Shown here: one piece after another, positions 2-17,278 of the stretch
Layout of the letters: every line of letters starts with the position of its first letter
How positions within the stretch are numbered: the stretch's first letter is position 1
NCBI GenBank assembly: GCA_937868765.1
Contig: CALMNL010000005.1
Span: 310,001-374,000, forward strand
Length of the DNA stretch: 64,000 nt
Source: an uncultured Desulfatitalea sp.
GTDB taxonomy: Bacteria; Desulfobacterota; Desulfobacteria; Desulfobacterales; Desulfosarcinaceae
Direction: 5' to 3'
The notes under the pieces: model-generated
Seen by the model: the letters and a program-made list of their open reading frames with translations, nothing else
Database searches by the model: none
Told to the model about the DNA's origin: nothing
Position numbers and translations under genes: made by a program

Positions 2-1207
2 CAGGCCTTCGGGCCGGAGATCATCGGCCTTTCGCTGCGCAACGTGGACAATACCGACAGCCGCGACCCCAAGGGCTTCATGGGCGATTACCGCCGGTTG
101 GTCCAGCGCCTGCGCCGGTGCAGCCACGCACCCATCGTGCTGGGGGGCAGCGGCTTCACCCTCTTCCCAGACGAGACCCTGGCACTGCTGGGGGCGGATT
201 ACGGTATCGTGGGCGAAGGCGAGCGCCTGGCCGCGTTGCTCGAGGCCCTGGCCGCCGGCCAGGACCCCGGCGGCCTGCCGGGGGTGGCGACGCGAAACGG
301 CCGCAAGGGCGCCTGGCTTTCCGTTGCGCCGGAACCGTGGCCCCTGCAGGTCCACCGCCGCTTCGACCCCGGGGCCGACCACCTGGGTTTTTACCTGCAA
401 AACGGCGGCATGCTCAACCTGCAGACCAAGCGCGGCTGCCCCTTCCGCTGCGTCTATTGCAGCTACCCCCACATCGAGGGGCGGGCCATGCGCCGCGTGC
501 CGGCCGGGGAGGTGGCCGCCATGGCCCTGCGGCTCCAGGCGGCCGGTGCGCGCTATCTTTTCATCACCGACTCGGCCTTCAACGCCGACATCGCGCACAG
601 CCTGGCCGTGGCCCATGCCTTCAAGGCGCAGGGGCTCGCCATTCCCTGGGGCGCCTTTTTCGCGCCCATCGCGCTGCCCGACGATTATTTCCAGGCCATG
701 GCGGCCTGCGGCCTCAAACACGTGGAGTTCGGCACCGAGTCCCTGAACGATGCGGTTCTGGAGGCCTACGGCAAGCCTTTCCGGCGCCGGGAGGTCGAGG
801 CGGCCCATGCGGCGGCGGTGGCGGCCGGACTGCACGTGGCCCACTATTTTCTGTTCGGCGGGCCGGGGGAGACGGAGGAGACGCTGGCAGACGCCCTGGC
901 ACATATTGACAAGCTCGAAAGAACCGTTCTATTCCTCTTTTGCGGCATGCGGATCTATCCCCACACCGGCCTGTACGAGATCGCCTTGCGGCAAGGGCAG
1001 ATTACGGCCTTCCAAAGCATCATGGATCCTGTATTCTACCACTCCCCCGGCATCAGCCTGTCGACCATCTCCCGGCGCCTGGATGAACACGCCCGGGGAC
1101 GGGAGAACTGGGTGCACGCGGCCGGCGGAGAAGCGGCGGTGCGGATCATGCGCCGCATGTACCGGCGGGGCCGCAGCGGTCCCTTGTGGGAATACCTGGT
1201 GCGTTGA
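2..1207 (+). CDS. B12-binding-type radical SAM enzyme, 5' end cut by window edge
   Basis: The frame is open from base 2 with no start codon, so the N-terminus lies outside the window. The first residues (PEIIGLSLRNVDN) resemble the end of a cobalamin-binding Rossmann domain. The radical SAM cysteine motif CX3CX2C (CPFRCVYC) lies at about 437-460 and binds the 4Fe-4S cluster that cleaves S-adenosylmethionine. Further hallmarks are GTESLND (about 733-753) and the FGGPGET strand near 855-875. This architecture is typical of B12-dependent radical SAM enzymes that methylate or rearrange unactivated carbons. It is the first visible gene of a plus-strand acyl/lipid assembly cluster and ends 31 bp before the dehydratase gene. 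The specific substrate cannot be read from the sequence. Confidence 0.85.
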   Translation, partial: QAFGPEIIGLSLRNVDNTDSRDPKGFMGDYRRLVQRLRRCSHAPIVLGGSGFTLFPDETLALLGADYGIVGEGERLAALLEALAAGQDPGGLPGVATRNGRKGAWLSVAPEPWPLQVHRRFDPGADHLGFYLQNGGMLNLQTKRGCPFRCVYCSYPHIEGRAMRRVPAGEVAAMALRLQAAGARYLFITDSAFNADIAHSLAVAHAFKAQGLAIPWGAFFAPIALPDDYFQAMAACGLKHVEFGTESLNDAVLEAYGKPFRRREVEAAHAAAVAAGLHVAHYFLFGGPGETEETLADALAHIDKLERTVLFLFCGMRIYPHTGLYEIALRQGQITAFQSIMDPVFYHSPGISLSTISRRLDEHARGRENWVHAAGGEAAVRIMRRMYRRGRSGPLWEYLVR

Positions 1208-1238
1208 GACGGCCGGAAGTATTGAAAGGCAACGGCCC

Positions 1239-1589
1239 ATGTGGCACGACCTGGAAAATAGAAGCCAAAGCGATGGCGCCCTGGCCGCCGAGGTGCGGGT
1301 GCCGGCGTCATCCCGCTGGTTCGACGGCCACTTTCCCGGTTATCCGGTGCTGCCGGGCATCGCGCAACTGGCCATGGTCTTCGACCTGATCCAGGGCGCT
1401 CTGGGCGTTCCGGCCCGGGTCCTGGAAGTGAGCCGGGTGCGGTTCAAGCAGATGATTGTGCCCGCAGACCGCCTGCAGCTCGTAGCCGAGCCGCGGCCCG
1501 GCCGCGAGGGGGCCTACGCCTTCCGGGTCATGAAGAATGGAGAGGTGGTCTGCAGCGGGACGATGATGGTCAAGAAGTTGGCGATGTGA
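1239..1589 (+). CDS. FabZ/ApeI-like hotdog 3-hydroxyacyl-ACP dehydratase
   Basis: This 116-residue protein has a single hotdog fold. The segment WFDGHFPGYPVLPGI (residues about 27-41) matches the FabA/FabZ active-site loop, including the catalytic His of HFPG. At 116 residues it is shorter than FabZ (about 145) and closer to the small dehydratases of aryl-polyene and related type II clusters. The ATG at 1239 is chosen because a GAAAGG ribosome-binding site lies about 9 nt upstream and because the fold begins soon after. It sits between the radical SAM gene and the acyl carrier protein gene. It likely dehydrates a beta-hydroxyacyl-ACP intermediate or tunes chain selection. Confidence 0.8.
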   Translation: MWHDLENRSQSDGALAAEVRVPASSRWFDGHFPGYPVLPGIAQLAMVFDLIQGALGVPARVLEVSRVRFKQMIVPADRLQLVAEPRPGREGAYAFRVMKNGEVVCSGTMMVKKLAM

Positions 1590-1646
1590 TCGTTACAGGT
1601 TTCAAGTGAAGGAAGTCAGTCGAACCAGATAAGGAGAAGAACGAAT

Positions 1647-1919
1647 ATGACGGTGGCAATGGAACTGGACCAGATGATTCTCAATATCGCGGCGATCATG
1701 ATCGAAGAACTCAAGCTGGAAGATGTGACGCCGGAGAGCTTCGATCCCGATATCGATCTGGTGGACGAGGTGGGCATCGACAGCATGGATCTGGCCACCG
1801 TGGCCCTGGTGCTGCGAGATAAATACGCCGTACGCATCGATGAAGACGACTATCCCAAGCTGACTACCCTGCGGCTGATCTCCGCGTACATTCACCGCAA
1901 GCTGGCGGCCAGAGGATGA
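1647..1919 (+). CDS. Acyl carrier protein
   Basis: This 90-residue protein carries the phosphopantetheine attachment motif GIDSMDL. The serine to be modified is residue 46. The predicted four-helix size and the acidic surface are typical of stand-alone type II ACPs. An AAGGAG ribosome-binding site at 1631-1636 supports the ATG at 1647. Its stop overlaps the start of the next radical SAM gene (ATGA, 1916-1919), which indicates translational coupling. It is presumably the carrier for the acyl chain handled by the two ketosynthases and dehydratases downstream, and it would be activated by the phosphopantetheinyl transferase domain encoded at 7136-8638. Confidence 0.9.
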   Translation: MTVAMELDQMILNIAAIMIEELKLEDVTPESFDPDIDLVDEVGIDSMDLATVALVLRDKYAVRIDEDDYPKLTTLRLISAYIHRKLAARG

Positions 1920-2977
1920 TGGCCAAGATGAAAGAGTGGAAGTTTGCCGAGCTGATCGCCGATCCGCACGTCAAGGCGCGTTGGGAGCGCGTGCGGCGCT
2001 ACTTCTTCCTGCGCGAGTCCACCTATGACATGACCCGCCGCTGCAACATCCGCTGCGAAGGGTGTTATTACTTCGAAGGCGACAAGCAGCATGCGGCCGA
2101 ACCGGGCGATCCCGAGGCCTGGCGCGCCCTGATGCGCGCCGAGCGCGAACGCGGCATCACTTACGTGGTGCTGGCCGGCGCCGAGCCTTCGCTGGTGCCC
2201 GACCTGCTCCAGGTCTGCTACGACGAGATGAACCTGGGCGCCATCGCCACCAACGGCATCCAGCGCATCCCGGAGACGGTGGGCTACAAGATCCACATCT
2301 CCGTCTGGGGCAACGACGATACCAGTTTGCGCATCAGAAAGGCCAAGCACATGCTGGCCCGTCAGATCGACAACTACCAGGGCGATCCCCGGGCGGTGTT
2401 CGTCTATACCTTCACGCCCCACAACATCGCCGAAGCCGCCGAAGTGGCCGAGACGCTGGCCGGCAAGGATTGCCGCCTGACCTTCAACGTCTTCTCCGCG
2501 CCCGTGGGCTACAACGGTCACCTGCGCCACACCCCCGACTCCCTGGCCCGGACCCGCCGGGCCATGCGCGAATTGCTGGCGCATTATCCGGGGAACGTGC
2601 TTTTCTCCACTTACAACGCCGTGGCCCACACCCACCGGCTGGGGCTGCACGATCTGTTCGGCTGCGCCTACCCCCGGCGCAATCCCTCCACCGATCTGGG
2701 CCTGGGGCGTTCGTTCCGCCAGTACCGCACCGATCTGAACTGGGACCGGGAGGCGGCCTGCTGTGTGCCCGACACCGATTGCGCCGACTGCCGCCACTAC
2801 GCTTCGGGCAGCGCGGTGGTCACCGCGCGCCTCTTCCGGCACGCCGTGGACCCCGATACCTTCAACTCCTGGCTGGATTACGTGGATACCTACCTGGCCG
2901 TCTGGGTGAAGGATTACGAAAAGGGACGCAACCTGTGCGACCGGCCGGTGGCGCCGCCGGGGTTCGGCATCGATTGA
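1916..2977 (+). CDS. Radical SAM enzyme (first of a related tandem pair)
   Basis: This 353-residue protein has the radical SAM motif CNIRCEGC with cysteines at residues 43, 47 and 50, preceded by YDMTRR. Near the C-terminus there is a second cysteine group (CCVPDTDCADC), which suggests auxiliary Fe-S binding as in SPASM/twitch enzymes, although the spacing is not canonical. It overlaps the ACP gene by 4 bp and is followed 42 bp later by a related gene with the same motif layout (YDVTNRCNLRCKGC). The pairing with ACP and ketosynthases suggests that it acts on an ACP-bound or lipid chain. Such enzymes are candidates for C-C bond formation or reduction in ladderane-type proposals, but the reaction is not known. 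Confidence 0.85.
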   Translation: MMAKMKEWKFAELIADPHVKARWERVRRYFFLRESTYDMTRRCNIRCEGCYYFEGDKQHAAEPGDPEAWRALMRAERERGITYVVLAGAEPSLVPDLLQVCYDEMNLGAIATNGIQRIPETVGYKIHISVWGNDDTSLRIRKAKHMLARQIDNYQGDPRAVFVYTFTPHNIAEAAEVAETLAGKDCRLTFNVFSAPVGYNGHLRHTPDSLARTRRAMRELLAHYPGNVLFSTYNAVAHTHRLGLHDLFGCAYPRRNPSTDLGLGRSFRQYRTDLNWDREAACCVPDTDCADCRHYASGSAVVTARLFRHAVDPDTFNSWLDYVDTYLAVWVKDYEKGRNLCDRPVAPPGFGID

Positions 2978-3019: not shown

Positions 3020-4018
3020 ATGAAGACCGTCAGTTCACTGCTGGATGACCACTGGTACGAGCGCTACAAGAAGATCTCCAAACTCAACATCCGCAGTTCC
3101 ATCTACGATGTGACCAATCGCTGCAACCTGCGCTGCAAGGGCTGTTTCTTCTTCTCCTCGGACGAGCACAAGGCCGCCCCCGAGGAGAACGACCTCGCCC
3201 GATGGGAAGCTTTCATCGACAAGGAGATGGAAAGGGGGGTGAACCTGGCCATCCTCATCGGCGGCGAGCCCACCCTGTGCTTCGACCGGGTGGAGGCCTT
3301 CTACAAGCGGCTGCCCACCTTCTGCGCCACCAACGGGCTGATCAAGGTGCCCCGGGACCGCTTCCCCACCATGATGATCGGCATCTCGTTGTGGGGCGAC
3401 GAAGAGGACGAGCGCGTGCTGCGGGGCAGGGACACCTTCTCGATTTCGAGCAAGCACTACGCCGGCGACCCTTACACCTACTATCTCTACACCATCACCC
3501 CCAAGCAGATCGGCAAGACCGAGCGCATCATCCGCAAGATCCACGAGGCCGGCCTCAAGGTGCACATGCAGCTGCTTTCCAACGACGAAGGCGTTTCGGG
3601 CTTCAGCTGGAAGCCCGAGGAGCTGGTCGCCATCCGGGCCGAGATGGACGCCATGCTCGACGCCTACCCCGAGACGGTGATCAGCTCCAAATACTACCAC
3701 GAGATCATCACCACCGGGAAGATGATGGGCCGGCCCTTCGGTTGGATGGAGTGCCCCTCGGTAACCCAGCCCCTGGACCAGCGCGACCCGGCGCCCAAGC
3801 GGCTCACCAACTTCATCCGCTGGGCCTCGGACCTTACGACCATGCATCGTTGCTGTACCTCGGAGACCCGCGACTGCGCCACCTGCAAGGACGGCGCGGC
3901 CCACATGAGCTGGGTGATGGTCAACAAACGCGCCCACATGGCCTCGACCCGGGATTTGCAGAACTGGATCGAAGTGTACGAGATGTTCGCCAAGCTCTAT
4001 CAATTCTTGCCGTGGTAG
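3020..4018 (+). CDS. Radical SAM enzyme (second of tandem pair)
   Basis: This 332-residue protein has its radical SAM cysteines at residues 35, 39 and 42 (CNLRCKGC). The glycine-rich SAM-binding segment LIGGEPTLC comes later. Near the C-terminus CCTSETRDCATC mirrors the cysteine group of the preceding gene, so the two are diverged paralogues that probably act in the same pathway. An AGGAG ribosome-binding site at 3010-3014 supports the ATG at 3020. The stop lies 3 bp before the ketosynthase start. The substrate is unknown. The location inside an ACP/ketosynthase operon argues for a modification of the growing or finished acyl chain. Confidence 0.85.
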   Translation: MKTVSSLLDDHWYERYKKISKLNIRSSIYDVTNRCNLRCKGCFFFSSDEHKAAPEENDLARWEAFIDKEMERGVNLAILIGGEPTLCFDRVEAFYKRLPTFCATNGLIKVPRDRFPTMMIGISLWGDEEDERVLRGRDTFSISSKHYAGDPYTYYLYTITPKQIGKTERIIRKIHEAGLKVHMQLLSNDEGVSGFSWKPEELVAIRAEMDAMLDAYPETVISSKYYHEIITTGKMMGRPFGWMECPSVTQPLDQRDPAPKRLTNFIRWASDLTTMHRCCTSETRDCATCKDGAAHMSWVMVNKRAHMASTRDLQNWIEVYEMFAKLYQFLPW

Positions 4019-4021: not shown

Positions 4022-5278
4022 ATGGCCGTGAACCCCAAACGTCCCGTCATCATCGGCTACGACGCCATTTCGCCCCTCGGTCTCGACCTGGCGACCCAGT
4101 GGCGGCGCGCCCTGGCGGGCGAAAGCGGGGTCGGCCGCCTGACGCGGTTTGCGGGCGGGGCAGCTTTCCCGGTGAAGATCGCCGGGCAGGCGCCCGACAT
4201 CGATCACCTGCCCTATGCCTTCCTCAAGCCCAGGGAGCAGGCGCGCTGGCCCTCGCCGATCTTCAAGTATGCCCTGCTCACCGTGGAGCGCGCCCTGGCC
4301 CATGCGGGGCTGACCATCACACCCGAGCTGGCGCCGCGGGTGGCCGTTACCTACAGCTCGGCCGTGGGCGGCCAGGATGCCGTGCTGGCCGCCGACCGCA
4401 AGCTGCAGGCCGAGGGATCGCTGCCGCTGCCGTGCACCAATCCCAACTCGTGCATCAACATGGTGGGCGGTAAAATCTCCATGCACACCGGCGCCACCGG
4501 CCCCATCGTGAGCACCATCACGGCCTGCGCCACGGGGGTCACCGCTTTGACCATGGGGGCCCTGCTGCTGGCCCAGGGCCGGGCCGACGTGGTGCTGTGC
4601 GGCGCCGTGGATTTCGCCCTGGTCGAACCCATCGTGGCCGGTTTCGCCACCATGGGGGGCGCCTTCGTGCCCAAGGAGAATCAACCCGACGAATCGCCGG
4701 AGCAGGCCAGCCGGCCCTTTTCCATCGACCGCCGCGGGTTCGTGGTGGCCGAGGGCGCCGGGTGCATCCTCCTCGCCAGCGAAGCCTTCGCCCGGGACCG
4801 CGGGCTTGCCTATAACGTCGCCATCGCCGGCTGGAGCATGACCTCGGACGCCCACCATTTCGTGGCCCCCCATCTTCCCACGGTGCGGCGCTGCATCGGC
4901 GAGAGCATCGCCCAGGCGGGCATCACCCCGGGCGACGTGAGTGCGGTCAATGCCCATGCCGCCGCCACGCGGGTGGGCGACAAGGTGGAGGTCGACGCCC
5001 TGCGGGAGGTCTTCGGCGACCGGCTGCCGCCGGTGACCGCCAACAAGTCGCTCATGGGCCATGCCATGGGCGCCTCCAGCGCCATCGAGGCGATCTTCGC
5101 CTGCGAGGGCCTGCGGACGGGCATGCTGCCGCCCACCATCAATTACCGGCCCGACCCGGAGCTTCCCATCGACTGCGTGGCCGAGGGCAGCCGAAAAGTA
5201 GACCAGACCTTCGTGCTCAAGAATGCCTTCGGGTTCGGCGGGTGTAATACGTGTGTCGTTTTTGAAAGATTGAGATAA
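4022..5278 (+). CDS. FabF-type beta-ketoacyl-ACP synthase 1 (complete Cys-His-His)
   Basis: This 418-residue protein has the thiolase fold of KAS II enzymes. All three catalytic residues are visible: Cys169 in TACATG, His312 in NAHAAAT and His347 in NKSLMGH. The normal NAHGTST loop is changed to NAHAAAT, which is unusual. Because the active-site cysteine is kept, this is a condensing enzyme and not a chain length factor. It would extend the ACP-bound chain by decarboxylative condensation with malonyl-ACP. It is part of the same tight plus-strand operon as the ACP and the radical SAM genes. A second ketosynthase follows after a 126 bp AT-rich spacer. Confidence 0.9.
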   Translation: MAVNPKRPVIIGYDAISPLGLDLATQWRRALAGESGVGRLTRFAGGAAFPVKIAGQAPDIDHLPYAFLKPREQARWPSPIFKYALLTVERALAHAGLTITPELAPRVAVTYSSAVGGQDAVLAADRKLQAEGSLPLPCTNPNSCINMVGGKISMHTGATGPIVSTITACATGVTALTMGALLLAQGRADVVLCGAVDFALVEPIVAGFATMGGAFVPKENQPDESPEQASRPFSIDRRGFVVAEGAGCILLASEAFARDRGLAYNVAIAGWSMTSDAHHFVAPHLPTVRRCIGESIAQAGITPGDVSAVNAHAAATRVGDKVEVDALREVFGDRLPPVTANKSLMGHAMGASSAIEAIFACEGLRTGMLPPTINYRPDPELPIDCVAEGSRKVDQTFVLKNAFGFGGCNTCVVFERLR

Positions 5279-5390: not shown

Positions 5391-5404
5391 CGAAACGAAG
5401 AGTG

Positions 5405-6670
5405 ATGAAAGCGCCGCTCAATAGAAAAGTATATGTCGTCGGCTACGACGTGGCCACGGCGTTAGGTCCGACCCTGGAAAGCACCTGGCAGCGCGCGGTG
5501 CGCGGCGAGGCCGGCTTCCGCCGGGTGACGCGCTGCGCCACCACCTCCCGCAGCAATGTGGTCGGAGAGATTCCCGACTGGCAGCCCCGTTCGCTGGAAT
5601 TCGTGGAGCGCAAGGACGCCTACAACTGGAACGCCGATTTTGTCTTCCTCACCATGGCCCTGTGCCGCCGCGCCCTGGACCATGCCGGCCTGGCCATGGA
5701 CGCCCGCACGGCGCCGCGCACCGCCTGCCTGGTGGGCTCGGCCCTCAACGGCAGCGACGCCATGCGCATCGCTGTGGAGAATCTCGCCCAGAAGGGGCCC
5801 ACCAAGGTGAGTCCCTATCTGCTGCCCAACCTGTGCGCCAACCTGCCGGCGGGCAAGGCCGGCATGCTCATCGGCTTCACCGGGCCGATCTTCTCCCCCC
5901 AGGGAGCCTGCGCCTCGGGCAACCACGCCATCGCCATCGGCAGCCGCATGATCCGCGACGGCGATTGCGACTTCGTCATCGCCGGCGGCGTGGAGACCTG
6001 CATCCTGCCCGAGATCATCCAGGGGTTCGCCAACATGTGGGCCACCATCAAGGTCGAGCAGGGGGACCGGGCCTATGCCGACCCCACCCAGGCCTCGCGG
6101 CCCTTCAGCATCGACCGCAAGGGCTTCGTCCTGGCCGAGGGCGGCGGCGTGGTGGTGCTGGCCGCCGACGAGATGGTGGCCGACCTGGGGCTCAAGCCCC
6201 GGGCCGAGGTGCTGGGGGTCGGCTGGACCTCGGATGCCCATCACTTTACATTGCCCCACGAACCGACCATCGTGCGGGCCATCCATGCGGCCATCGACGA
6301 CGCCGGCCTTGCGCCGGAAGATATCGAGGCGATCAACGCCCACGGCACCTCCACCCCCAAGGGCGACGCCGTGGAGGTGGCCTGCCTGCGCACGGTCTTC
6401 GGCCCGGCCCTGGGCCGGATCCCCATCTCGGCCAACAAGTCCCAGGTGGGTCACACCCTGGGGGCCGCGGCCGGCATCGAGGCCGTGCTGGGCATCGAGG
6501 CCATGCAGCAGGGCCTGCTGCTGCCCACGGTCAACCACCGGCCCGACCCGGCCTTCGACGACATCGACGTGGTGCCCAACCAGGCCCGGCGCCAGGCCCA
6601 CGAATTCCTGATCTCCAACGCCTTCGGATTCGGCGGCACCAACTGCTGCATCGTCTTCAGAGGAGTGTAG
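5405..6670 (+). CDS. FabF-type beta-ketoacyl-ACP synthase 2 (complete Cys-His-His)
   Basis: This 421-residue protein is a second KAS II-like condensing enzyme. The catalytic residues are Cys169 (GACASG), His313 (NAHGTST) and His350 (NKSQVGH). It is clearly homologous to the preceding ketosynthase but keeps the canonical GTST loop. Both are therefore predicted to be active, unlike the KS plus chain-length-factor pairs of many type II clusters. An in-frame GTG at 5402 precedes the ATG at 5405 by one codon. I prefer the ATG. The stop lies one base before the GTG of the thioesterase gene, so the two are translationally linked. Confidence 0.9.
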   Translation: MKAPLNRKVYVVGYDVATALGPTLESTWQRAVRGEAGFRRVTRCATTSRSNVVGEIPDWQPRSLEFVERKDAYNWNADFVFLTMALCRRALDHAGLAMDARTAPRTACLVGSALNGSDAMRIAVENLAQKGPTKVSPYLLPNLCANLPAGKAGMLIGFTGPIFSPQGACASGNHAIAIGSRMIRDGDCDFVIAGGVETCILPEIIQGFANMWATIKVEQGDRAYADPTQASRPFSIDRKGFVLAEGGGVVVLAADEMVADLGLKPRAEVLGVGWTSDAHHFTLPHEPTIVRAIHAAIDDAGLAPEDIEAINAHGTSTPKGDAVEVACLRTVFGPALGRIPISANKSQVGHTLGAAAGIEAVLGIEAMQQGLLLPTVNHRPDPAFDDIDVVPNQARRQAHEFLISNAFGFGGTNCCIVFRGV

Positions 6671-6671
6671 C

Positions 6672-7157
6672 GTGCGACCCAAGCCCTTTCGGCCCCAACC
6701 TCTCGATGGAAACGACGATGGCGCCTATGTGCGCGACCAGACCAGCGGCCTGGTGTGGCACCGCTGTTCGCTGCGCACCCTTTACGCCGACACCGACCGC
6801 TCCCAGGTGGTCTACCATTCCAACTACCTGCGCTACTTCGAGTTCGGCCGGGCCTCGCTGATGCGCGACGCGGCCTACGCCTACAAGGAGATCGAAGCCA
6901 GCGGCTTCGTCTACCCCATCATCGCCACGGCCCTGGAGTACTTCCGGCCCCTGCACTACGACGACGCCATGCACATCCACACCCGGCCCGGCCCCCTGGA
7001 ACGGGTCAAGCTGCAGTTCGACTACGTGATCACCCACGTGCCCAGCGGCGACCTGGTCTGCACCGGCTTTACCCGGCACTGCGCGGTGAACGCCAAGGGC
7101 ACGCCCGTGGGCATCGACGAGAAGACATTGCACCTATGGGCGATCTTCCCCCAATAG
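6672..7157 (+). CDS. 4HBT/YbgC-like acyl thioesterase
   Basis: This 161-residue hotdog protein has the segment YADTDRSQVVYHSNYLRYFE near residues 37-56. This matches the 4-hydroxybenzoyl-CoA thioesterase signature, including the catalytic Asp of the Y-x-D-T-D motif. The GTG start at 6672 is supported by AGGAG at 6661-6665. Thioesterases of this type release acyl chains from ACP or CoA and are regular members of aryl-polyene and related clusters. The gene overlaps the next one by 22 bp. Substrate chain type is not evident from sequence. Confidence 0.85.
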   Translation: MRPKPFRPQPLDGNDDGAYVRDQTSGLVWHRCSLRTLYADTDRSQVVYHSNYLRYFEFGRASLMRDAAYAYKEIEASGFVYPIIATALEYFRPLHYDDAMHIHTRPGPLERVKLQFDYVITHVPSGDLVCTGFTRHCAVNAKGTPVGIDEKTLHLWAIFPQ

Positions 7158-8638
7158 ACGCCGACGGCCGGACGGCCGTGCCCATTGCCGTGGCGCCCCT
7201 GTGGGCCGACCACTGCTTCCAGGGCCGGGCCGTGCTGCCGGCCGTGGCGGCCCTGGAATTGCTGGCCACCTGGGCGCGGCGCGCCCGGCCCGATCTTCAT
7301 GTGCATGACCTGCGTCACGCGACCTTCGACAAATTTTTGGAGCTGCCGCCGGATGGCGCACCGATCCCGGCCTGGTGCGAGCTGCGCGAACTGCCCGGCG
7401 GCGCCCTGCGCGCGGCCCTGATCACCAAGACCCAGGCCAGGTCGGCCAAGATGACCCGCGCCAAGGTGCATGCCCGGGTCGATTTCCATCCCCCCGAAGC
7501 GGTGGCGCCTCCGGCAGCCCTGGATCTGGCCGCGGCCCTGGCCGGGTGCTGCTTCACCGTGGACCCGGAGCCCCTGTACCGCGAGCTGGTGCCCTTCGGT
7601 CCGGCCTTTCAGACCATCCGCCGACCCCTGTGGGTCACGGCCGAAGGGGCCCTTTCGGTCATCGGCGCGCCGGCGGACGATCCGGCCGACGCGCTCCTGG
7701 GCGCCTCCCGGGTGCTGGACGCCGCCCTGCATGCCGCCTGCGTCTGGAGCCAGCGCCATGCGGGCATCGTGGCCTTTCCCGTGGGATTCGAACGGCGGGT
7801 GGTCGTGCGGCCCACCCGGCCGGGCGACACCTATGTGAGCCGGATTTTTCCCGTGGGGGCCGAGGGCGGCGCGCTGACCTTCGACATCTGGATTCTGGAC
7901 CTGGACGGTCGGGCCTGCGAGCTGCTCCAGGGGGTGGCCATGCGCGATGTCAGCGGCGGCACCCTGCGGCCGCCGGCATGGGTCCGGTCCGGGACGGAGG
8001 ATCGCCTCGCCCCCATCGACCCCTTCTGCGCGGCCCGGGTGCTCATCGAACGGGCCACGGTGATGCCCTTCGCCGAACGGTGCCTCTCGGCAGCCGAGCG
8101 GCAGCGCACCGTCAAGATGAGCCCCAAGCGGCGGACCGACTACTGCTCGTCGCGCCTGGCCCTGAAGCGGCTCTTTCGCCGGTTGGCCGGGGAGGACCAT
8201 CGCACCCCGGCCACCCAGATCCACACCCTGGCCGCCGACGGCGTCCGGCCTGCGCTCGGCCTTTCGGGTCTGCATGGCAGCGTGGCCCACGACCGGCGCT
8301 TCACCGTCGCCCTGGCCGCCCGGACACCCATCGGCGTAGATGTGGAGCAGGTGGCGGATCGGGTCTTGAAAAGCCTGCCCATCTTCGCCCGCGAGACGGA
8401 ACAGACCCTGGTGGCCGTGTCACCATTGGGACAGGCGGGAGCCGCCATACGGGTGTGGACCATCAAGGAGGCGGCAGCCAAGCTGCTGGGCATCCCCCTG
8501 GCCGATGCCTGGGGCCGGGCGCGGGTGGTGGAAATAGGCCCGGACCGGAGCCGGGTCGCCATCGCGGCCGGGCCGGCGGTGGCGGCGTGCCACGCCGAGC
8601 TGGAAGGGCATTTGATCACGCTCCTGGTTCCGTTATAG
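7136..8638 (+). CDS. PKS-type dehydratase domain fused to 4'-phosphopantetheinyl transferase
   Basis: This 500-residue protein has two parts. Residues about 1-270 resemble a polyketide synthase double-hotdog dehydratase. The HX3GX4P motif is seen as H26..G30..P35, and the second catalytic group is seen as D195xxxH199. Residues about 290-500 resemble a Sfp/HetI-type phosphopantetheinyl transferase, with the magnesium-binding GVDVE (D402, E404) and WTIKEAAAK (K444, E445). The protein would both dehydrate intermediates and activate the cluster's ACP. The ATG at 7136 overlaps the thioesterase gene by 22 bp. It is chosen because the HX3GX4P motif starts soon after. The fusion makes the cluster self-sufficient for carrier-protein activation. 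Confidence 0.85.
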   Translation: MGDLPPIDADGRTAVPIAVAPLWADHCFQGRAVLPAVAALELLATWARRARPDLHVHDLRHATFDKFLELPPDGAPIPAWCELRELPGGALRAALITKTQARSAKMTRAKVHARVDFHPPEAVAPPAALDLAAALAGCCFTVDPEPLYRELVPFGPAFQTIRRPLWVTAEGALSVIGAPADDPADALLGASRVLDAALHAACVWSQRHAGIVAFPVGFERRVVVRPTRPGDTYVSRIFPVGAEGGALTFDIWILDLDGRACELLQGVAMRDVSGGTLRPPAWVRSGTEDRLAPIDPFCAARVLIERATVMPFAERCLSAAERQRTVKMSPKRRTDYCSSRLALKRLFRRLAGEDHRTPATQIHTLAADGVRPALGLSGLHGSVAHDRRFTVALAARTPIGVDVEQVADRVLKSLPIFARETEQTLVAVSPLGQAGAAIRVWTIKEAAAKLLGIPLADAWGRARVVEIGPDRSRVAIAAGPAVAACHAELEGHLITLLVPL

Positions 8639-9722: not shown

Positions 9723-9768
9723 GGGTTCAAACCTTAGCCGACCGGCCGGGGACAATCAAGGCTTATAA

Positions 9769-10509
9769 ATGACCAATAATTATATCGATCCGAAACCGGC
9801 GCGCGCCGCCGATCCCTGGGCGCACTTCGACCGGATCTTCTGCATCACCCTCAAGGAGCGGCCCGACCGCCGGGCCCAGGCCGAGGCGCAATTCGAACGG
9901 GTGGGATTGGCCGGTCGCGTTGTGTTCCACGTGGCCGAGCGCCATCCCACCGATTGCGAACAAGGGATCTACGAGTCCCACATCGGCTGCATGCAGCGCG
10001 GGCTTGCCGAGGGCGGCCAACGCCTGCTGATCTTCGAGGACGACGTGATGTTCGAGCGCTTCGATCCCCGCCGCCTTGCCGCGGCCCTGGCGTTTTTGGA
10101 AGGTCAGCCCGATTGGCACCTGCTCTTCCTGGGCTGCCTGGTCAAGGGCAGCCGGCCCACCGCCTCGCCGGCGGTGAGAACGATATCATATGGGTGTCTG
10201 ACCCACGGCTATGCATTGAACCGCCCGTGCGCCGAACTGCTCTCCAGGAGTCCATGGCACGGCGTGCCCATCGATGCCGTGATGGGCCGCCTGGACTATG
10301 GGCTCTATGTTTGTTATCCATCGTTTGCGTTCCAGAGCAACGCCGCCTCGGACAACTATCGCCTGCGGCGTCTGGACCGCTTCCGGCGCTGGTGCGGCGG
10401 GCTGCGGCGCATCCAGAAATTCAACGAATTCTGGCATTGCCACCGGACACCGCTCGTGATCCTGCACGTCCTGGGTCTGGCGGCGCTGCTGTGGCTGATC
10501 TTGCCCTGA
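9769..10509 (+). CDS. Glycosyltransferase family 25 (LPS-type)
   Basis: This 246-residue protein begins with a family-25 signature: FDRIFCITLKERPDRR near residue 20, then a SHIGCMQRG helix and the metal/sugar-nucleotide motif FEDDV near residues 91-95. A C-terminal hydrophobic stretch (VILHVLGLAALLWLILP) could anchor it in the inner membrane. Family-25 enzymes usually transfer galactose or related sugars to lipopolysaccharide core. Here the neighbour genes suggest glycosylation of the lipid product or of an associated envelope glycan. The stop lies 15 bp before the preferred start of the MMPL gene. Confidence 0.8.
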   Translation: MTNNYIDPKPARAADPWAHFDRIFCITLKERPDRRAQAEAQFERVGLAGRVVFHVAERHPTDCEQGIYESHIGCMQRGLAEGGQRLLIFEDDVMFERFDPRRLAAALAFLEGQPDWHLLFLGCLVKGSRPTASPAVRTISYGCLTHGYALNRPCAELLSRSPWHGVPIDAVMGRLDYGLYVCYPSFAFQSNAASDNYRLRRLDRFRRWCGGLRRIQKFNEFWHCHRTPLVILHVLGLAALLWLILP

Positions 10510-10524: not shown

Positions 10525-13500
10525 ATGAAACCACACCGCATCCATCTGCCGCTGCTGTTTTTCGTCCTCCTGGCCGCGGCCGGCCTGTTCGCCGCGGGCT
10601 GGCACCTGATCCGCATCGATACCGACATCGTCTCTTCGCTGCCCCAGGACGATCCGGTGATTCGGGATGCCCTGTACATCTTCAAGCACCACCCCTTCCA
10701 GGACCAGCTCACCATCGACATCGCGCTGGCCGCGGCCGATTCGGACCAGCTGGTGGCCTGCGCCCTGGCCGTGGAGAAGGAATTGCGCGCCAGCGGCCTT
10801 TTCAGGCAGGTGGGCATGGAAGACGCGGCCAAGGTGTTGCCCGAACTGGCGCGCAGCGTGGCCGAGCGCCTGCCGGTGCTGTTTACACCCCAGGAGCTGG
10901 CGGAGCGGGTCGGCCCGCTGCTGACACCCGAGCGGATCACCCGGCGGGTGGCGGCGCTGCAACAGGAGCTGCTGCAGATGGAGGGCATCGGCCAGGCCGA
11001 CCTGATGGCCCTGGACCCCCTGGGGCTCAAGGACCTGGTCCTGGCCCGGATGATCCACCTGGCCCCCACCCAGTCGGCCCGGATCTACAAAGGGCATCTG
11101 ATTTCCGGCGACGACCGCCACCTGCTGCTCACCGCCGTGCCCCGCACCGCTGGCACCGACGGTGCCACCGCCCGGCGCCTGTCCGATTATCTGGATCGAC
11201 TGGCCGCGGCGATGCAGGACCGTTTCGCCGGCCAGGGGCTGAAGGTCCGACTGACCCCCGTGGGCGCCTACCGGGCCGCCCTGGACAACGAAGTCATGGT
11301 GCGGGCCGATGTGCAGCGGGCCGTTTTCTTCTCGACCCTGGGCATTGCGCTCCTGCTGCTGCTGGCTTTTCCCCGGCCCTGGCTCGGCCTGCTCTCGCTG
11401 GTGCCGGCCCTGGTGGGCACCATGGCCGCCTTCTTCGTCTTCGCCCTGCTGCGGCCCTCCATTTCGATCCTGGTGCTGGGCTTCGGCGGCGCCATCATCT
11501 CCATCGCCGTGGATCAGGGCATCGCCTACCTGCTTTTCCTGGATCGGCCCCAGGAGACCTTCGGCAAGGAGGCGGCCCATGAGATCTGGTCCGTGGGGCT
11601 GCTGGCCGAGCTGACCACCGTGGGCGCGCTGACGGCCCTGATGCTCAGCGACTTTCCCATTTTCCGGCAGTTGGGGCTGTTTTCCGCCCTGGGCAGCTGT
11701 TTCGCCTTTCTCTTCGTGCACTCGGTCTTTCCCCTGATCTTTCCCTCGCTGCCCGGCTCCAGGGAGCGGCGCCTGCCGCTGCCCCGGGTGGCCGACCGGC
11801 TCTTCTCGTTCGGCACCGCCGGCGCGGTGCTTGCCGCGCTGCTCTGCGGCGGGTTGATCTTCTTCGCCAAACCCGAGTTCGACGTCAATCTCAGCGCCAT
11901 GAACACCGTCAGCCAGGCCACCCGGGAGGCGGAGGCCCGGCTGACCGCCACCTGGGGCGCGATCTTCAGCAAGATTTACCTGCTGACCGAGGCCGATTCC
12001 CTGACGGCGCTGCAGGACACCGACGACCGTCTGCTGGCCCGGCTGGAGGCCGATCCTGAATCGGATCTGCTGGCCAAAGCCTTTCTGCCGGCCATGATCT
12101 TTCCCGGAAGCCGCCGCAGCAGCGCCAACCTGGCGGCCTGGAAAGCGTTCTGGACGCCGCAGCGCGTGGCAGATCTGAAACAGACCTTGCCTTCGGCGGG
12201 CATCGAAGCCGGCTTTACCCCCGATGCCTTCGCGCCGTTTTTCGCACGCCTGACCCATCCCGAAGCGCACCTGCCTGCGCCCGGCATTCCCGAAGCGTTC
12301 CGGCCGCTCATGGGCGTGGCCCAGGCGCAGGAGGACGGCCCCTGGCGGCAGTTCGCCAGCCTGATTCCGCCCCGGGGGTACGCAGACCGCGGCTTTTACG
12401 AACGTTACCGGGATGCGGCCCGGATCTTCGATCCCAACCTGTTTTCCAGACGGCTGGGCCATTTGATGTTCGATACCTTCGTCAAGCTGCTGGCCATCAT
12501 CGGTTCGGCCGTGGCCGTGCTGCTGTTCGTCTTCTTCCTGGATGCGGGGCTGACCCTGCTGGCCCTGCTGCCGGTGGCCTTCGCCATGGTCTGTTCCCTG
12601 GGGACCCTTTCCCTGCTGGGCCGGCCCCTGGACATTCCTTCCCTGATCCTGGCGGTGATCGTGTTGGGCACCGGCATCGACTACTCCCTGTTCGTGGTGC
12701 GCTCCTACCAGCGTTACGGTACGGCCAGCCACCCGGCCTTCACCCTGATCCGTTCGGCCGTGGTGATGTCGGCCTTTTCCACCCTGGTGGGCTTCGGCGT
12801 CATGGCCGTGGCCCGGCACGCGGTGCTGCAAAGCGCCGGCATTGCCGGGGCCCTGGGAATCGGCTACTCGCTGCTGGGCGCCTTCCTGATCCTGCCGCCC
12901 CTGCTCAAGCGGCGCTTCGAAACCCCGTTGCGGCTGCCTCCGTCGGCCGGGCTGGCGGAACGCATCCGTGCGCGCTACAGCCGCATGGAACCCAAGGACC
13001 GCATGTTCGCCCGCTTCAAGTTGAAGCTGGATCCCATGTTCGGCGAGCTGCCGCACCGCGTAGCCTGCTTTGACGAGCCGCCCCGAACCTTGATCGACCT
13101 GGGCACCGGTTTCGGCGTGCCGGCCTGCTGGCTGGCCGAGACGTTCCCCGGTGTGCATATTCACGGCATCGAACCTTCGGCCGACCGGGTGCGGGTGGCC
13201 TCCCAGGCCCTGGGGACCAACGGCACCGTGGTGCGCGGCGCGGCCCCGGATCTGCCGCCGGCGCCGCCGGAGGCCGACGGCGCCTTCATGCTGGACATGA
13301 TGCACTACCTGGATGACGCTGGATTCGCTTCGACCCTTTCGCACCTGCATTCGCGCCTCAAGGCCGGCGCCCCGCTGATCATCCGCTCGGTCATGCGGCC
13401 CACCCGACCCCGGCCCTGGTCCTTCTGGGTGGATCAGTTGAAGAACCAGTGCAACGGCCTGCCTACCTGGTTCCGTTCGGTGGCAGAGATACAGGCCCTG

Positions 13501-13587
13501 CTGGCGGCCAACGGCTTTGAGCTTGAAAAGACGGCTCCTTCGGGGACCAAGGGGGAGTTGCTTTGGATCTGCTCACGACGGCGATAA
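10525..13587 (+). CDS. MMPL/RND-type lipid exporter fused to a class I SAM methyltransferase
   Basis: This protein of about 1020 residues has two modules. Residues 1 to about 805 form an MMPL-like exporter. There is one N-terminal membrane helix, a large periplasmic loop, a block of helices (about 270-430), a second loop and a second helix block (about 650-800) with GTGIDYSLFVVRSY, typical of RND/MMPL proteins. Residues from about 820 form a Rossmann methyltransferase with SAM motif I LIDLGTGFG near residue 857 and a DMMHYL motif IV. The ATG at 10525 is preferred over an upstream TTG. In aryl-polyene clusters exporter and methyltransferase are separate proteins, so the fusion is notable. It probably exports or flips the cluster's lipid. 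Confidence 0.85.
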   Translation: MKPHRIHLPLLFFVLLAAAGLFAAGWHLIRIDTDIVSSLPQDDPVIRDALYIFKHHPFQDQLTIDIALAAADSDQLVACALAVEKELRASGLFRQVGMEDAAKVLPELARSVAERLPVLFTPQELAERVGPLLTPERITRRVAALQQELLQMEGIGQADLMALDPLGLKDLVLARMIHLAPTQSARIYKGHLISGDDRHLLLTAVPRTAGTDGATARRLSDYLDRLAAAMQDRFAGQGLKVRLTPVGAYRAALDNEVMVRADVQRAVFFSTLGIALLLLLAFPRPWLGLLSLVPALVGTMAAFFVFALLRPSISILVLGFGGAIISIAVDQGIAYLLFLDRPQETFGKEAAHEIWSVGLLAELTTVGALTALMLSDFPIFRQLGLFSALGSCFAFLFVHSVFPLIFPSLPGSRERRLPLPRVADRLFSFGTAGAVLAALLCGGLIFFAKPEFDVNLSAMNTVSQATREAEARLTATWGAIFSKIYLLTEADSLTALQDTDDRLLARLEADPESDLLAKAFLPAMIFPGSRRSSANLAAWKAFWTPQRVADLKQTLPSAGIEAGFTPDAFAPFFARLTHPEAHLPAPGIPEAFRPLMGVAQAQEDGPWRQFASLIPPRGYADRGFYERYRDAARIFDPNLFSRRLGHLMFDTFVKLLAIIGSAVAVLLFVFFLDAGLTLLALLPVAFAMVCSLGTLSLLGRPLDIPSLILAVIVLGTGIDYSLFVVRSYQRYGTASHPAFTLIRSAVVMSAFSTLVGFGVMAVARHAVLQSAGIAGALGIGYSLLGAFLILPPLLKRRFETPLRLPPSAGLAERIRARYSRMEPKDRMFARFKLKLDPMFGELPHRVACFDEPPRTLIDLGTGFGVPACWLAETFPGVHIHGIEPSADRVRVASQALGTNGTVVRGAAPDLPPAPPEADGAFMLDMMHYLDDAGFASTLSHLHSRLKAGAPLIIRSVMRPTRPRPWSFWVDQLKNQCNGLPTWFRSVAEIQALLAANGFELEKTAPSGTKGELLWICSRRR

Positions 13588-13830: not shown

Positions 13831-14610
13831 ATGAGCAAAGGACATAAAATCGCTATCGGCATGCTGACGGTTGCGCTGCTGCTGGCCTGGGCCGACCCGG
13901 CGCTGGCCCTGGTGCCGCTGGTGCTCTCGCTGCTGCTCTACCTCGCCGCGCCCTTCATGTACCGCTTCGGCTTCTTTCTGCCCGTCATCAGCCGCGGCCG
14001 CTCCGGACTTCGGGCGGTGGCCCTGACCTTCGACGACGGCCCCGATCCGGTCACCACGCCGCTGCTGCTGGAGCGTCTGGCCGCCCACCAGGCACCGGCC
14101 ACTTTTTTCGTCACCGGACGCCGGGCTGCAGCTTATCCCGATTTGATCCAGGCCATCCTGGCCGCAGGCCACACCATCGGCAACCATTCGTTCAGCCACG
14201 ACAGCCTGGTGGCCTTCAAAGGCCGCCGGCAGATCTTCACCGAAATCGCTGAAACCCAGCGGATTCTGAGCGGGATGGGGGTGACGCCGATGCTTTTCAG
14301 GCCGCCGGTGGGCATCACCTATCCGGGGTTGCGCAAGGTGCTGCCCCGGCTGGGGCTGGCGTGCGTGACCTTCAGCTGTCTGGCCCGGGACGGGGGCAAT
14401 CGATCCATTGCGCGACTTTCGGAGCGCATTCTGCAGCGGGTAAGGCCGGACGACATCATCATGCTGCACGACAGCCGGCCGCAGCGCCGGAAGCATTTGA
14501 GTCACTGGCTGACTGAAATCGATCGGATTCTGGCGGGTCTTCCGCAAAAGGGGCTGGGTGTCCGGCCGTTGGCCGACCTCATCGGACGGCCGGTGGATCG
14601 GCGGAGTTAG
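13831..14610 (+). CDS. Polysaccharide deacetylase (NodB homology, CE4)
   Basis: This 259-residue protein has one or two N-terminal membrane segments (to about residue 40) and then a NodB domain. Motif 1 is TFDDGPDP (catalytic Asp pair), motif 2 is HSFSHDS (metal-binding His residues), motif 3 is RPPVG, and a late LHDS motif is present. All expected catalytic groups are present. Family members remove N-acetyl groups from envelope or glycolipid sugars, probably facing the periplasm here. The ATG at 13831 follows a GAGAAGG ribosome-binding site. The 3' end overlaps the convergent radical SAM gene by 32 bp. Confidence 0.85.
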   Translation: MSKGHKIAIGMLTVALLLAWADPALALVPLVLSLLLYLAAPFMYRFGFFLPVISRGRSGLRAVALTFDDGPDPVTTPLLLERLAAHQAPATFFVTGRRAAAYPDLIQAILAAGHTIGNHSFSHDSLVAFKGRRQIFTEIAETQRILSGMGVTPMLFRPPVGITYPGLRKVLPRLGLACVTFSCLARDGGNRSIARLSERILQRVRPDDIIMLHDSRPQRRKHLSHWLTEIDRILAGLPQKGLGVRPLADLIGRPVDRRS

Positions 14611-15655
14611 GCTTCTCCATACAATTCCGCCAGCAGAGCGGATCGGCGGCCAGATAGTCGCCGGTGATCTGGAAGGCGGCGCCCCGGCAGCCGTAGCAGA
14701 CCTCCGCCCGGTCGCAGGTGCGGCAGCCGCCCTTGATGGTGTGGCGGTGGTTTTTCAAGTCTTTGAGCACCTGGCTTTGGGCCAGGATTTCAGCCAGGGG
14801 CAGGTGCCGGAGGTTGCCCAGGGACAGGGTGACGCCCACGCAGGGCATGATGTCGCCCCGGGAGGTCACCAGACAGGAGAACTGGTGGCGCATGCACTGG
14901 CCGCCCACCAGGGGCGGCTGGATTTCCCAGGCGCGGCCGAAGCGGCGGCGGTCCAGGTCGGCGATGGCCTGGAAGAATTGCTTCAGTTCGGGCGGTGCCA
15001 CACACAGCCACTGATTGTCCAGGGCGTGGGCCTGGGGGGTGATGATCTCGAAGTAGGGCGCAATCCCCTGCGCCCGCGCCCACTGCCACAGGCGCGGCAA
15101 GTCCGCGATGTTCTGGCGGCAGATCACCGAGCTGACGGCCAGGAAGCGATCGGCGGAAGGATAGCCGACCGCCTTCAGACGGTCCAGGGCCGTGTGAATG
15201 ATGCGGTAGGCCTCTGCGTGACCCGACAGCCGGTTTTGCAGCTCCGGGTCGAAGGCGTTCATCTTGAGCACCACCCGTACCTGGTGGTCGGCCAGCATGG
15301 CGGCGAAGGCCTCGGTGATGCCCGAGCCGTTGGTGAACATTTCCACGGCCAGGCCGTGTCGCCGCATGAAGGCGATCAGTTCCGGCGTGTGGGGGTAGAG
15401 GGAGGGCTCGCCGCCCAGGATGATGATCTTGCCGGCGCCCAGGGCCTTGGCCTGCAGAATGGCCGATTGGATCTCTTCCAGCGAGAGCTCGTCCTGCAGT
15501 TGCTCCCGGGTGGGGACATAGCAGTAAGGGCAGCGGAAATTGCAGCGCAGGCTGAATTCGATCTCCATGGTGAGCAAGCGTCCCTGACGGACGGCTGCGG
15601 CGATGATTTCCGGGGAGAATTCGAAGCTGTTGGCAGGCGCAGGGTGTCGGTTCAC
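14579..15655 (-). CDS. Radical SAM/SPASM-domain protein
   Basis: This 358-residue protein has radical SAM cysteines at residues 38, 42 and 45 (CNFRCPYC) and the GGEPSLYP motif. The C-terminus is rich in cysteine (GQCMRHQFSC, MPCVG, GGCRTCDRAEVCYGCRG), as expected for a SPASM domain holding two auxiliary 4Fe-4S clusters. Relatives modify peptides or small molecules, for example in peptide maturation. No precursor peptide is obvious nearby. It lies on the minus strand between the deacetylase and the acyl ligase, so membership in the lipid cluster is possible but unproven. Confidence 0.85.
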   Translation of the reverse strand: MNRHPAPANSFEFSPEIIAAAVRQGRLLTMEIEFSLRCNFRCPYCYVPTREQLQDELSLEEIQSAILQAKALGAGKIIILGGEPSLYPHTPELIAFMRRHGLAVEMFTNGSGITEAFAAMLADHQVRVVLKMNAFDPELQNRLSGHAEAYRIIHTALDRLKAVGYPSADRFLAVSSVICRQNIADLPRLWQWARAQGIAPYFEIITPQAHALDNQWLCVAPPELKQFFQAIADLDRRRFGRAWEIQPPLVGGQCMRHQFSCLVTSRGDIMPCVGVTLSLGNLRHLPLAEILAQSQVLKDLKNHRHTIKGGCRTCDRAEVCYGCRGAAFQITGDYLAADPLCWRNCMEKPNSADPPAVR

Positions 15656-15820
15656 GAACTATCTTTCATCAGGTTGGAGCAATTTGAACGATGGCCCCAA
15701 CTTATGGAATTCGGCCCAGCGTGTCAAGCCGGTCGCCCACGGGGCAAGGATGGCGCTTGCTGCGTATTGACAGCCCTGCGGCTCGGGGCATAGAGTCCGG
15801 CTGACGAGAGGTCCTTTGCA

Positions 15821-17278
15821 ATGAACGACTACGATGCCCATAAGGATACGATCAGCGACGCCCTTTTGAAGGCGCGGCTGGGCCGACTGCTGGCCGGACC
15901 GGACGACCCCGCCAATCCGTTCGTGCCGGGCGCCAGTTCGTACAGAACGCTTTACGCCCTGGCGGCCGATGTGCGGGCGGCCTGCAGCGCCGAGACGGCG
16001 CCGGTCTGCCTTTGCGCCCAGGACAAAGCCGTGGTGGCCGGCGCCCTGCTGGCAGCCCTGGCCGGCGGGCCGACCTTGATCCTGCCCCATGCCTTCGATG
16101 CGCCGGTACTCGACGAACTGCAGCGTCTGACGGGTTTCGGCACCGTGGTCAGCGACATCCCCCGGCCGGTGCCGGTTGGCGTGCGCTGCTGCATCCCCGA
16201 CCCGGAACGGACGGCCTGGCCGTCCCCGGCGGCGCTGGTCCCTAAATCCGTGAACGATCCCTGGCTGCGGCTGTTCACCGGCGGCTCCACCGGCGCCCCC
16301 AGGATGTGGACCAAGACCGTGCGCAACCTGCTGGCCGAAACCTTGTCCATCATCGCCAACTACCATGTCAGCCCCGGGGATCGGATCCTGGCCACGGTGT
16401 CCGCCAATCACATCTACGGCCTGCTCTATGCCGTGCTCACGCCGCTGCTGGCCTCGGCCGCGGTGGCGGGCCCGACCCCCTCTTTCCCCGGCGAGATCGA
16501 GGCCGCCGGACGGCAGAGTGCGGCCACGATCCTGGTCAGCGTGCCGGCGCACTACCGGGCGCTGAACGGCCACCCGTTCCAGCTTCCGGCGCTGCGCCTG
16601 GCGTTCTCTTCGGCCGGCATGCTGGCCGAAGAAGATGCCATGGCCTTTTCCGGCCAGACCGGCGTACCGGTGGCGGAGATCTACGGTTCCACCGAAACCG
16701 GCGGCATCGCCTGCCGGCTGCGGGCCCAAGGCGAAACGGATTTCAAGCCTTATCCGGCGATTGCGGTCCGCATCGAAGGGGAACGGCTCAAGGTGCGCTC
16801 CGATTATCTTTCCCCGGAGCTGGCCCGCGACCGCCACGGCTATTTCACCATGGGAGATCGGGTCGAAGTTACGGCCGGCGGTCGCTTCGCACTGCTCGGC
16901 CGGGCCGACGGCATCGTCAAGGTGGGCGGCCGGCGGGTGGATCTGGAGTCGGTGCGCCAGCGCCTGAAAAATCATCCGGAGGTCCGGGACGCCGTGGCCA
17001 TTTCGCTGCCCGTAGGGCGCGGCCGGGAGAACCAGATCGTGGCGGTCGTCGAGGCCGATCCAGAAACGGTGGATGTGGGCCGTATGCTTGCGCACCTGTC
17101 GCCCTGGGACCGTCCCCGGGGCATCAAGGTGCTCCCGCGGATTCCCATGACCGCGGCGGGAAAATATGACCGCGGCCGTATCGCGGCGCTGTTTCAGGCC
17201 GGCGGCCTGCGGGCGGCATCTTCCTCAGCTTCCGCCGAACAAGGAGGAGAAGATGGAGAAGCAAAGGCACCGTATTAA
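15821..17278 (+). CDS. AMP-forming acyl-CoA/acyl-ACP ligase (aryl-polyene-cluster-like)
   Basis: This 485-residue protein belongs to the ANL adenylating family. The P-loop is FTGGSTGAPRMWTK (about residues 152-165), followed by IYGSTETGG, a GDRVEV segment and the catalytic C-terminal lysine motif MTAAGKYDR. It would activate a carboxylic acid with ATP and load it on CoA or ACP as starter or finished chain. At 485 residues it is shorter than typical fatty acyl-CoA ligases and similar to the AMP-ligases of aryl-polyene clusters. Its 3' end overlaps the following small gene by 26 bp. Confidence 0.8.
   Translation: MNDYDAHKDTISDALLKARLGRLLAGPDDPANPFVPGASSYRTLYALAADVRAACSAETAPVCLCAQDKAVVAGALLAALAGGPTLILPHAFDAPVLDELQRLTGFGTVVSDIPRPVPVGVRCCIPDPERTAWPSPAALVPKSVNDPWLRLFTGGSTGAPRMWTKTVRNLLAETLSIIANYHVSPGDRILATVSANHIYGLLYAVLTPLLASAAVAGPTPSFPGEIEAAGRQSAATILVSVPAHYRALNGHPFQLPALRLAFSSAGMLAEEDAMAFSGQTGVPVAEIYGSTETGGIACRLRAQGETDFKPYPAIAVRIEGERLKVRSDYLSPELARDRHGYFTMGDRVEVTAGGRFALLGRADGIVKVGGRRVDLESVRQRLKNHPEVRDAVAISLPVGRGRENQIVAVVEADPETVDVGRMLAHLSPWDRPRGIKVLPRIPMTAAGKYDRGRIAALFQAGGLRAASSSASAEQGGEDGEAKAPY

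Follow-up and report, generated by a model that had tools for sequence, protein, structure and literature searches.

The window, the whole 64,000-nucleotide stretch analyzed here (bases 310001-374000 of contig C5, CALMNL010000005.1, from the 5.36-Mb genome of an uncultured Desulfatitalea sp.), begins within a gene cluster that probably encodes an aryl-polyene (APE)-type, highly reducing type II polyketide synthase (PKS) with added radical S-adenosylmethionine (SAM) enzymes, making an outer-membrane polyene lipid. The nearest named relatives of a marker gene are Desulfatitalea, Desulfosarcina, and other Desulfobacterota. We joined the 34 kb leftward of the window to it, and gene calling on the combined stretch gave g1-g84. 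Window positions equal C5 positions minus 310000, and genes left of the window edge carry negative positions. An initial annotation had described a lipid or polyketide cluster running past the left edge. The gene calls located every enzyme that it named at the place given, along with two additional window genes (g39 and g42), and the cluster indeed reaches about 24 kb past the edge, to about -23.8 kb, for a span of about 41 kb. Its right boundary is the end of g44 (17278); g45-g48 are almost never found among relatives. The genes discussed below are as follows.

g7, -23755 to -23348, plus strand: 4HBT thioesterase
g9, -21606 to -20851: GT2 glycosyltransferase
g10, -20655 to -19747: lipid-A-type acyltransferase
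g11, -19664 to -19404: acyl carrier protein (ACP)
g12, -19377 to -18139: ketosynthase (KS)
g13, -18142 to -17315: acyltransferase
g14, -17318 to -15828: B12 radical SAM enzyme
g15-g21, between g14 and g22: unrelated-looking genes (sigma-54 activator, SDR, thiolase, CoA transferase, SRAP, DUF6982)
g22, -6544 to -5273, minus strand: B12 radical SAM enzyme
g23, -5218 to -4547, minus strand: lipoprotein
g24, -4550 to -3936, minus strand: LolA
g25, -3900 to -3160, minus strand: FabG/ApeQ-type ketoreductase (KR), SxYxxxK intact
g26, -3163 to -2747, minus strand: ApeP-like dehydratase
g27, -2582 to -2310, plus strand: ACP
g28, -2313 to -154, plus strand: KS-chain-length factor (CLF) fusion
g29, -157 to 1207 (1 to 1207 within the window), plus strand: B12-binding radical SAM enzyme, TIGR04072 rSAM_ladder_B12, kuste3342 homologue; full length 454 aa, cut by the window edge
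g30, 1239 to 1589, plus strand: hotdog dehydratase, ApeI-like
g31, 1647 to 1919, plus strand: ACP with a DSM serine motif
g32, 1919 to 2977, plus strand: radical SAM enzyme of a tandem pair, CX3CX2C and five invariant C-terminal Cys
g33, 3020 to 4018, plus strand: radical SAM enzyme of the tandem pair, SPASM/twitch-like fold, 71-95% identity across the phylum
g34, 4022 to 5278, plus strand: beta-ketoacyl-ACP synthase, cluster-specific FabF-derived clade
g35, 5402 to 6670, plus strand: beta-ketoacyl-ACP synthase, sister clade to g34
g36, 6672 to 7157, plus strand: 4HBT thioesterase, ApeK-like
g37, 7136 to 8638, plus strand: PKS-type dehydratase-phosphopantetheinyl transferase (PPTase) fusion
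g38, 8645 to 9286, plus strand: PlsY-like glycerol-3-phosphate acyltransferase, in 9 of 35 full loci
g39, 9315 to 9755, minus strand: small membrane protein, no Pfam match, kept in 25 of 35 full loci
g40, 9769 to 10509, plus strand: family 25 glycosyltransferase-like
g41, 10525 to 13587, plus strand: MMPL transporter (ApeM-like)-SAM methyltransferase fusion
g42, 13831 to 14610, plus strand: polysaccharide deacetylase
g43, 14579 to 15655, minus strand: SPASM radical SAM enzyme, kuste3343 homologue
g44, 15821 to 17278, plus strand: AMP-forming acyl ligase, ApeH-like
g5, -26867 to -25110 (L001:7133-8890), minus strand: alpha/beta-hydrolase-radical SAM-SPASM fusion

We compared profiles of the window families with the APE proteins of Escherichia coli CFT073 (c1186-c1204) and with E. 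coli FabB, FabF, FabG, and AcpP. Fourteen of the 18 CFT073 APE slots were matched by sequence: ApeC, D, E, F, H, I, J, K, L, M, O, P, Q, and R. In APE pathways, ApeO-ApeC elongates the chain with help from ApeR, and the double bonds are retained (PMC8253772, PMC8358021). Here, the KS and CLF corresponding to ApeO-ApeC are fused in one protein, g28, which matched ApeO at 2e-82 and ApeC at 9e-12; with hhalign, its N-terminal half matched ApeO (100%) and its C-terminal half ApeC (94.8%). The second KS is g12 (6e-101 against ApeR, compared with 1e-74 against FabB). Two dedicated ACPs are present, g27 (ApeE, 2e-24) and g11 (ApeF), with g31 as a third. The KR g25 is accompanied by two dehydratases, g30 (ApeI, 5e-17) and g26 (ApeP, 3e-17), and the Pfam scan of the cluster genes revealed no enoyl reductase. 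The remaining functions of an APE set are covered by the AMP ligase g44 (ApeH, 6e-33), the thioesterases g36 (ApeK, 5e-24) and g7 (also matching ApeK), ApeJ in two pieces (g9 and g10), the acyltransferase g13 (ApeD, 2e-21), the LolA protein g24 (ApeL, 8e-12), and the MMPL exporter g41 (ApeM, 3e-26). We also tried g40 as ApeJ and g39 as ApeG, and neither matched. The initial annotation had seen no KR, which holds inside the window but not beyond its edge, where g25 sits 3.2 kb out.

Compared with the CFT073 locus, the cluster has additional genes: up to seven radical SAM enzymes, the KS pair g34/g35, the ACP g31, the dehydratase(-PPTase) g37, the PlsY-like g38, and the deacetylase g42. In phylogenetic trees of KS proteins, g12 grouped with ApeR (support 99/93), and the N-terminal half of g28 grouped with ApeO and the KSs of anaerobic ammonium-oxidizing (anammox) clusters (98/95). 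In the C-terminal half of g28, Asp replaces the catalytic Cys, and both His and the Lys are lost in all seven sequences compared; this half is therefore a CLF, fused to its own KS. Both window KSs are complete, as had been noted, with the Cys-His-Lys-His residues intact in g34 and g35. These two proteins form sister clades that are jointly supported at 100/100 on a stem of 1.12 changes per site. Their best-scoring models are FabF, yet the clade falls outside both E. coli FabF and the genome's own housekeeping FabF, which is encoded elsewhere (C8:95651) and groups with E. coli FabF. Neither placement within housekeeping FabF nor synteny with primary fatty acid synthesis, the two outcomes that the initial annotation had set against its own proposal, was found. 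Elsewhere in the genome (G000), KS domains at C3:714640-715479 and C3:747221-749467 belong to open frames of 2189 and 2408 aa, respectively; the longer frame has two such domains. These frames may encode type I PKS or polyunsaturated fatty acid synthase-like proteins.

Seven radical SAM enzymes (g5, g14, g22, g29, g32, g33, and g43) carry the CX3CX2C motif, which was fully conserved among orthologues where checked. g29 scored 389.2 bits against TIGR04072 rSAM_ladder_B12 (curated cut-off 360), a model that names a single enzyme; no NCBIfam radical SAM model reached its cut-off for g14, g22, g32, g33, or g43. The tandem genes g32 and g33 encode paralogues (29% identity) in which C35/C39/C42 and the further C-terminal cysteines C278/C279/C286/C289 are invariant. 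The g33 structural model (pLDDT 81.7, low at the cluster loops) matched the SPASM/twitch enzymes anSME, CteB, SuiB, and BlsE at low TM-scores of 0.47-0.52, and a sequence search against solved structures gave weak generic matches. The expected SPASM/twitch features (CX3CX2C, a partial TIM barrel, and C-terminal auxiliary-cluster cysteines) are all present in g33. As a radical SAM pair, g32/g33 has no name and is conserved to an unusual degree.

We searched about 85,000 species genomes with g33 and kept the best 80 of 320 matched stretches, a set biased to similar sequences. Stretches bearing g33 include metagenome-assembled genomes labelled Spirochaetes and Planctomycetota. Among 297 genomes drawn from the phylum, the distribution is patchy, with g33 in 22 (own genome counted); identity in these relatives was 71-83%, except for one partial match at 39%. 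g32 lies directly upstream of g33 in 72 of 73 assessable loci. The block g30-g37 was kept in 35/35 loci with full flanks and is thus not a chance association; g22-g29 are present in 21-27 of the same 35. Within one set of loci, median identity ranged from 36% (g23) to 83% (g33), which places g33 under unusual constraint. The dehydratase-PPTase fusion reported in the initial annotation is present in g37 but is lineage specific: the counterpart in 44 of 58 relatives is a frame of about 275-365 aa without the PPTase part. In Desulfatitalea relatives (L056, L059, and others), g43 directly follows g38, with g39-g42 either lacking or relocated; the locus is modular in its envelope part.

Genes from the left half of the cluster co-occur with g33. 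In a comparison of 63 genomes, g22 was found in 33/33 genomes with g33 and in 3/30 without it, a count that excludes a fourth match at 37% identity (Fisher P = 8e-15, uncorrected for relatedness). The corresponding figures for g14 were 24/33 and 1/30 (P = 9e-9, likewise uncorrected); the sole g33-less genome with g14 is a fragmented assembly from the same genus (G010). In some relatives (L076, L089, and L099), g10-g14 and g43 lie directly before g30. Together, the tracking of g33 by g22 and g14 and this arrangement indicate that both halves belong to one system. In three relatives, g22 contains in-frame stops, which we considered as selenocysteine codons and rejected: two TGA codons are ordinary C-terminal stops and one TAG replaces a Trp codon. 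That TAG, in a metagenome-assembled genome (L197:301-1548), is codon 7 of the matched stretch, near the N-terminus at a conserved Trp, and is probably an error or early decay.

We then compared the cluster with the anammox ladderane locus. Planctomycete genomes with TIGR04072 matches were collected, anammox members were recognised by hydrazine synthase, and genes in their loci were called as longest open reading frames. One locus, L159, is kuste3335-3349 of Kuenenia stuttgartiensis: the six residues that Rattray's Table 2 lists for kuste3348 (Ser, Ser, Pro, Phe, Asp, Asn) recur at L159:3095-4156, and the gene order fits the published tags (KS, KS-like, radical SAM, radical SAM, FabG, dehydratase, methyltransferase, membrane protein). 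Common to both loci are the B12 radical SAM g29/kuste3342 (34% identity), the SPASM radical SAM g43/kuste3343 (44%), a KR (43%), a dehydratase, a KS, a GT2 glycosyltransferase, an MMPL protein with an adjacent methyltransferase matching g41 (hhalign 97.9), and a CLF-like dead KS, kuste3348 (hhalign 95.7); an ACP was seen in the sister locus L161. The g29 and g43 homologues are side by side in Kuenenia, while here g43 lies 13 kb from g29. The Kuenenia locus has a phytoene desaturase, kuste3336, unlike the cluster described here: the search for a phytoene-desaturase-like gene, which covered the Pfam-scanned genes of g1-g47, found none. Conversely, in the tested anammox genomes, from which the g32/g33 pair is absent, the g33 profile gave at most generic matches of about 50 bits. 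The stretch examined in Kuenenia has no g37 counterpart, and its KSs fall outside the g34/g35 clade. The two loci thus have in common a polyene-synthase-like base and two radical SAM enzymes, with different specific modules.

The protein at L159:3095-4156 (kuste3348), which has been presented as a FabF whose active site differs radically, looks like a CLF, and that at L159:13011-15518 (kuste3337) looks like an MMPL transporter. The comparison suggests these roles for the two proteins; on that view, the ladderane candidate locus would itself be an APE-like type II PKS. Two large planctomycete genomes in the collection, G529 and G356, have an HZS_alpha domain in frames of 1301-1347 aa (about 820 aa in others) and are possibly not anammox; in G529 (L163), close relatives of g22 (58%) and g29 (39%) adjoin KS, ACP, and LolA genes.

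Loci of this kind have been seen before. Rattray et al. (2009) noted radical SAM-type II fatty acid synthase loci in Desulfotalea, Geobacter, and Pelobacter, that is, in Deltaproteobacteria (PMC2649909), and antiSMASH "ladderane" labels are reported in Desulfobacterota (PMC9902471). By its published description, the locus of Desulfotalea, a deltaproteobacterial sulfate reducer, resembles the present one in having kuste3342/kuste3343 homologues and differs from it in the phytoene dehydrogenase genes that it is reported to carry. The initial annotation had proposed a hybrid or new envelope-lipid pathway; the APE mapping, the TIGR04072 match, and the g29/g43 homologues in Kuenenia bear out an APE-ladderane hybrid anatomy, but "new" was partly overstated given these earlier loci.

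At the flanks, g5 is an unusual 585-aa fusion whose neighbour g6 is a family 28 glycosyltransferase. It lies beyond g7, and its cluster membership is uncertain. To the right, the minus strand at 19410-23219 of the window encodes a 1269-aa protein without any Pfam match.

Several observations weigh against an APE-type assignment. The ApeA and ApeG slots had no match in the profile comparison, and ApeB was matched weakly, by the methyltransferase C-terminus of g41 (hhalign 93%). A LolA/LolB-type role is assigned to ApeN in the APE pathway (PMC8253772). The candidate for it here is g23, which carries a lipobox and was modelled with confidence (pLDDT 93.5); the PDB structures that best match the model are LolA/LolB proteins. 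By sequence, however, g23 has no match to ApeN (1.5%), and this slot would be filled by predicted fold only. The KR g25 resembles FabG almost as closely as it does ApeQ, ApeO joins its group in the KS tree with weak support (83/76), and no metabolite is known for the cluster. The search of the genome for starter enzymes covered UbiC, the chorismate lyase (PF04345), and aromatic ammonia-lyase (PF00221), and gave no match to either. The usual aryl starter therefore has no known source, neither an aryl starter nor an aryl product is supported, and we file the locus as APE-like rather than as an APE cluster.

The near-complete APE gene set could also be read as belonging to an ordinary aryl polyene pigment pathway, with radical SAM enzymes that merely supply the aromatic starter, standing in for the missing UbiC/TAL enzymes, or decorate the head group. 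We regard this as possible but doubtful: head-group decoration would not call for as many as seven radical SAM enzymes together with a further KS pair, ACP, and dehydratase, and g34/g35 form a separate KS clade without a counterpart in the E. coli APE locus. That the radical SAM enzymes polycyclise a polyene-ACP into ladderanes or other cyclobutane-type lipids, as proposed for anammox bacteria, is unlikely. The TIGR04072 score of g29 and the pairing of g29/g43 homologues in Kuenenia with a KS, CLF-like KS, KR, dehydratase, MMPL, and GT2 favor it, but Desulfotalea psychrophila, which has homologues of both radical SAM enzymes (DP1853/DP1855), yielded no detectable ladderanes (PMC2649909). A ladderane product is not supported here, given that the scanned genes of the cluster include no phytoene-desaturase-like gene and g32/g33 lack an anammox counterpart.

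A specialised or accessory fatty acid synthase, supplying the bulk membrane with, for instance, anaerobic unsaturated or branched fatty acids, would account for the FAS-like nature of all parts, the FabF-model scores of g34/g35, and the PlsY-like g38. We consider it improbable in view of the patchy distribution, the separate FabF, the CLF, the LolA/LolB/MMPL export set, the lack of an enoyl reductase among the scanned genes, and the long KS stem. It is just as improbable that two independent pathways are neighbours here, an APE-like one (g9-g14 and g22-g29) and an unrelated radical SAM locus (g30-g44). The g15-g21 genes do interrupt the locus, and some relatives have g30-g37 beside g10-g14 and g43 without g22-g29; against this, g22 and g14 track g33 across genomes, and the right half itself fills APE slots through g30 (ApeI), g36 (ApeK), g41 (ApeM), and g44 (ApeH).

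For the preferred APE-type PKS with added radical SAM enzymes, we infer the reaction order, the polyene nature of the product, and its export from the genes described above. The ligase g44 would load an acyl starter onto the ACP g27, and the KS-CLF fusion g28 and the ApeR-like g12 would extend the chain with malonyl units from the ACP g11. The KR g25 and dehydratases g26/g30 would convert every beta-keto group to a double bond; since no enoyl reductase is present among the scanned genes, a conjugated polyene would accumulate. A second, inseparable block (g31, g32/g33, g34/g35, the thioesterase g36, and the dehydratase g37) may make or rearrange part of the chain on an ACP by radical chemistry, and the B12 enzymes g14/g22/g29 and the SPASM enzyme g43 may add C-methylation, C-C bonds, or rings. 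The acyltransferases g10, g13, and g38 could then attach the product to a lipid, to be carried to the outer membrane by the MMPL protein g41, the LolA protein g24, and the LolB-like lipoprotein g23. The starter and the radical steps are the weakest links. More tentatively, and at a likelihood that we put low, the g30-g37 block with its tandem radical SAM pair would make a new class of Desulfobacterota envelope lipid, in which radical SAM enzymes cyclise or cross-link a polyene from an APE-type synthase; anammox ladderanes would then form a sister branch that follows the same polyene-then-radical logic.

While radical SAM-type II fatty acid synthase loci in Deltaproteobacteria are already known, the literature that we searched, with most subscription journals outside it, contained no paper mapping these loci on the APE pathway, reading kuste3348 as a CLF, or describing the g32/g33 pair. 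Ladderane biosynthesis is unsolved, and heterologous expression of most of 34 candidate genes yielded no ladderanes (PMC4790861). The cluster described here has both key radical SAM candidates and the APE-type KS/CLF polyene-synthase base common to the anammox locus. Anammox bacteria are not in pure culture; the present locus is carried by the cultivated strains Desulfogranum mediterraneum, Desulfobulbus rhabdoformis, Desulfofustis glycolicus, and Desulfatitalea alkaliphila. Because cultivated strains carry it together with the candidates common to anammox bacteria, "polyene first, radical chemistry second" is directly testable, and the cluster may give a cultivable route into the ladderane pathway.

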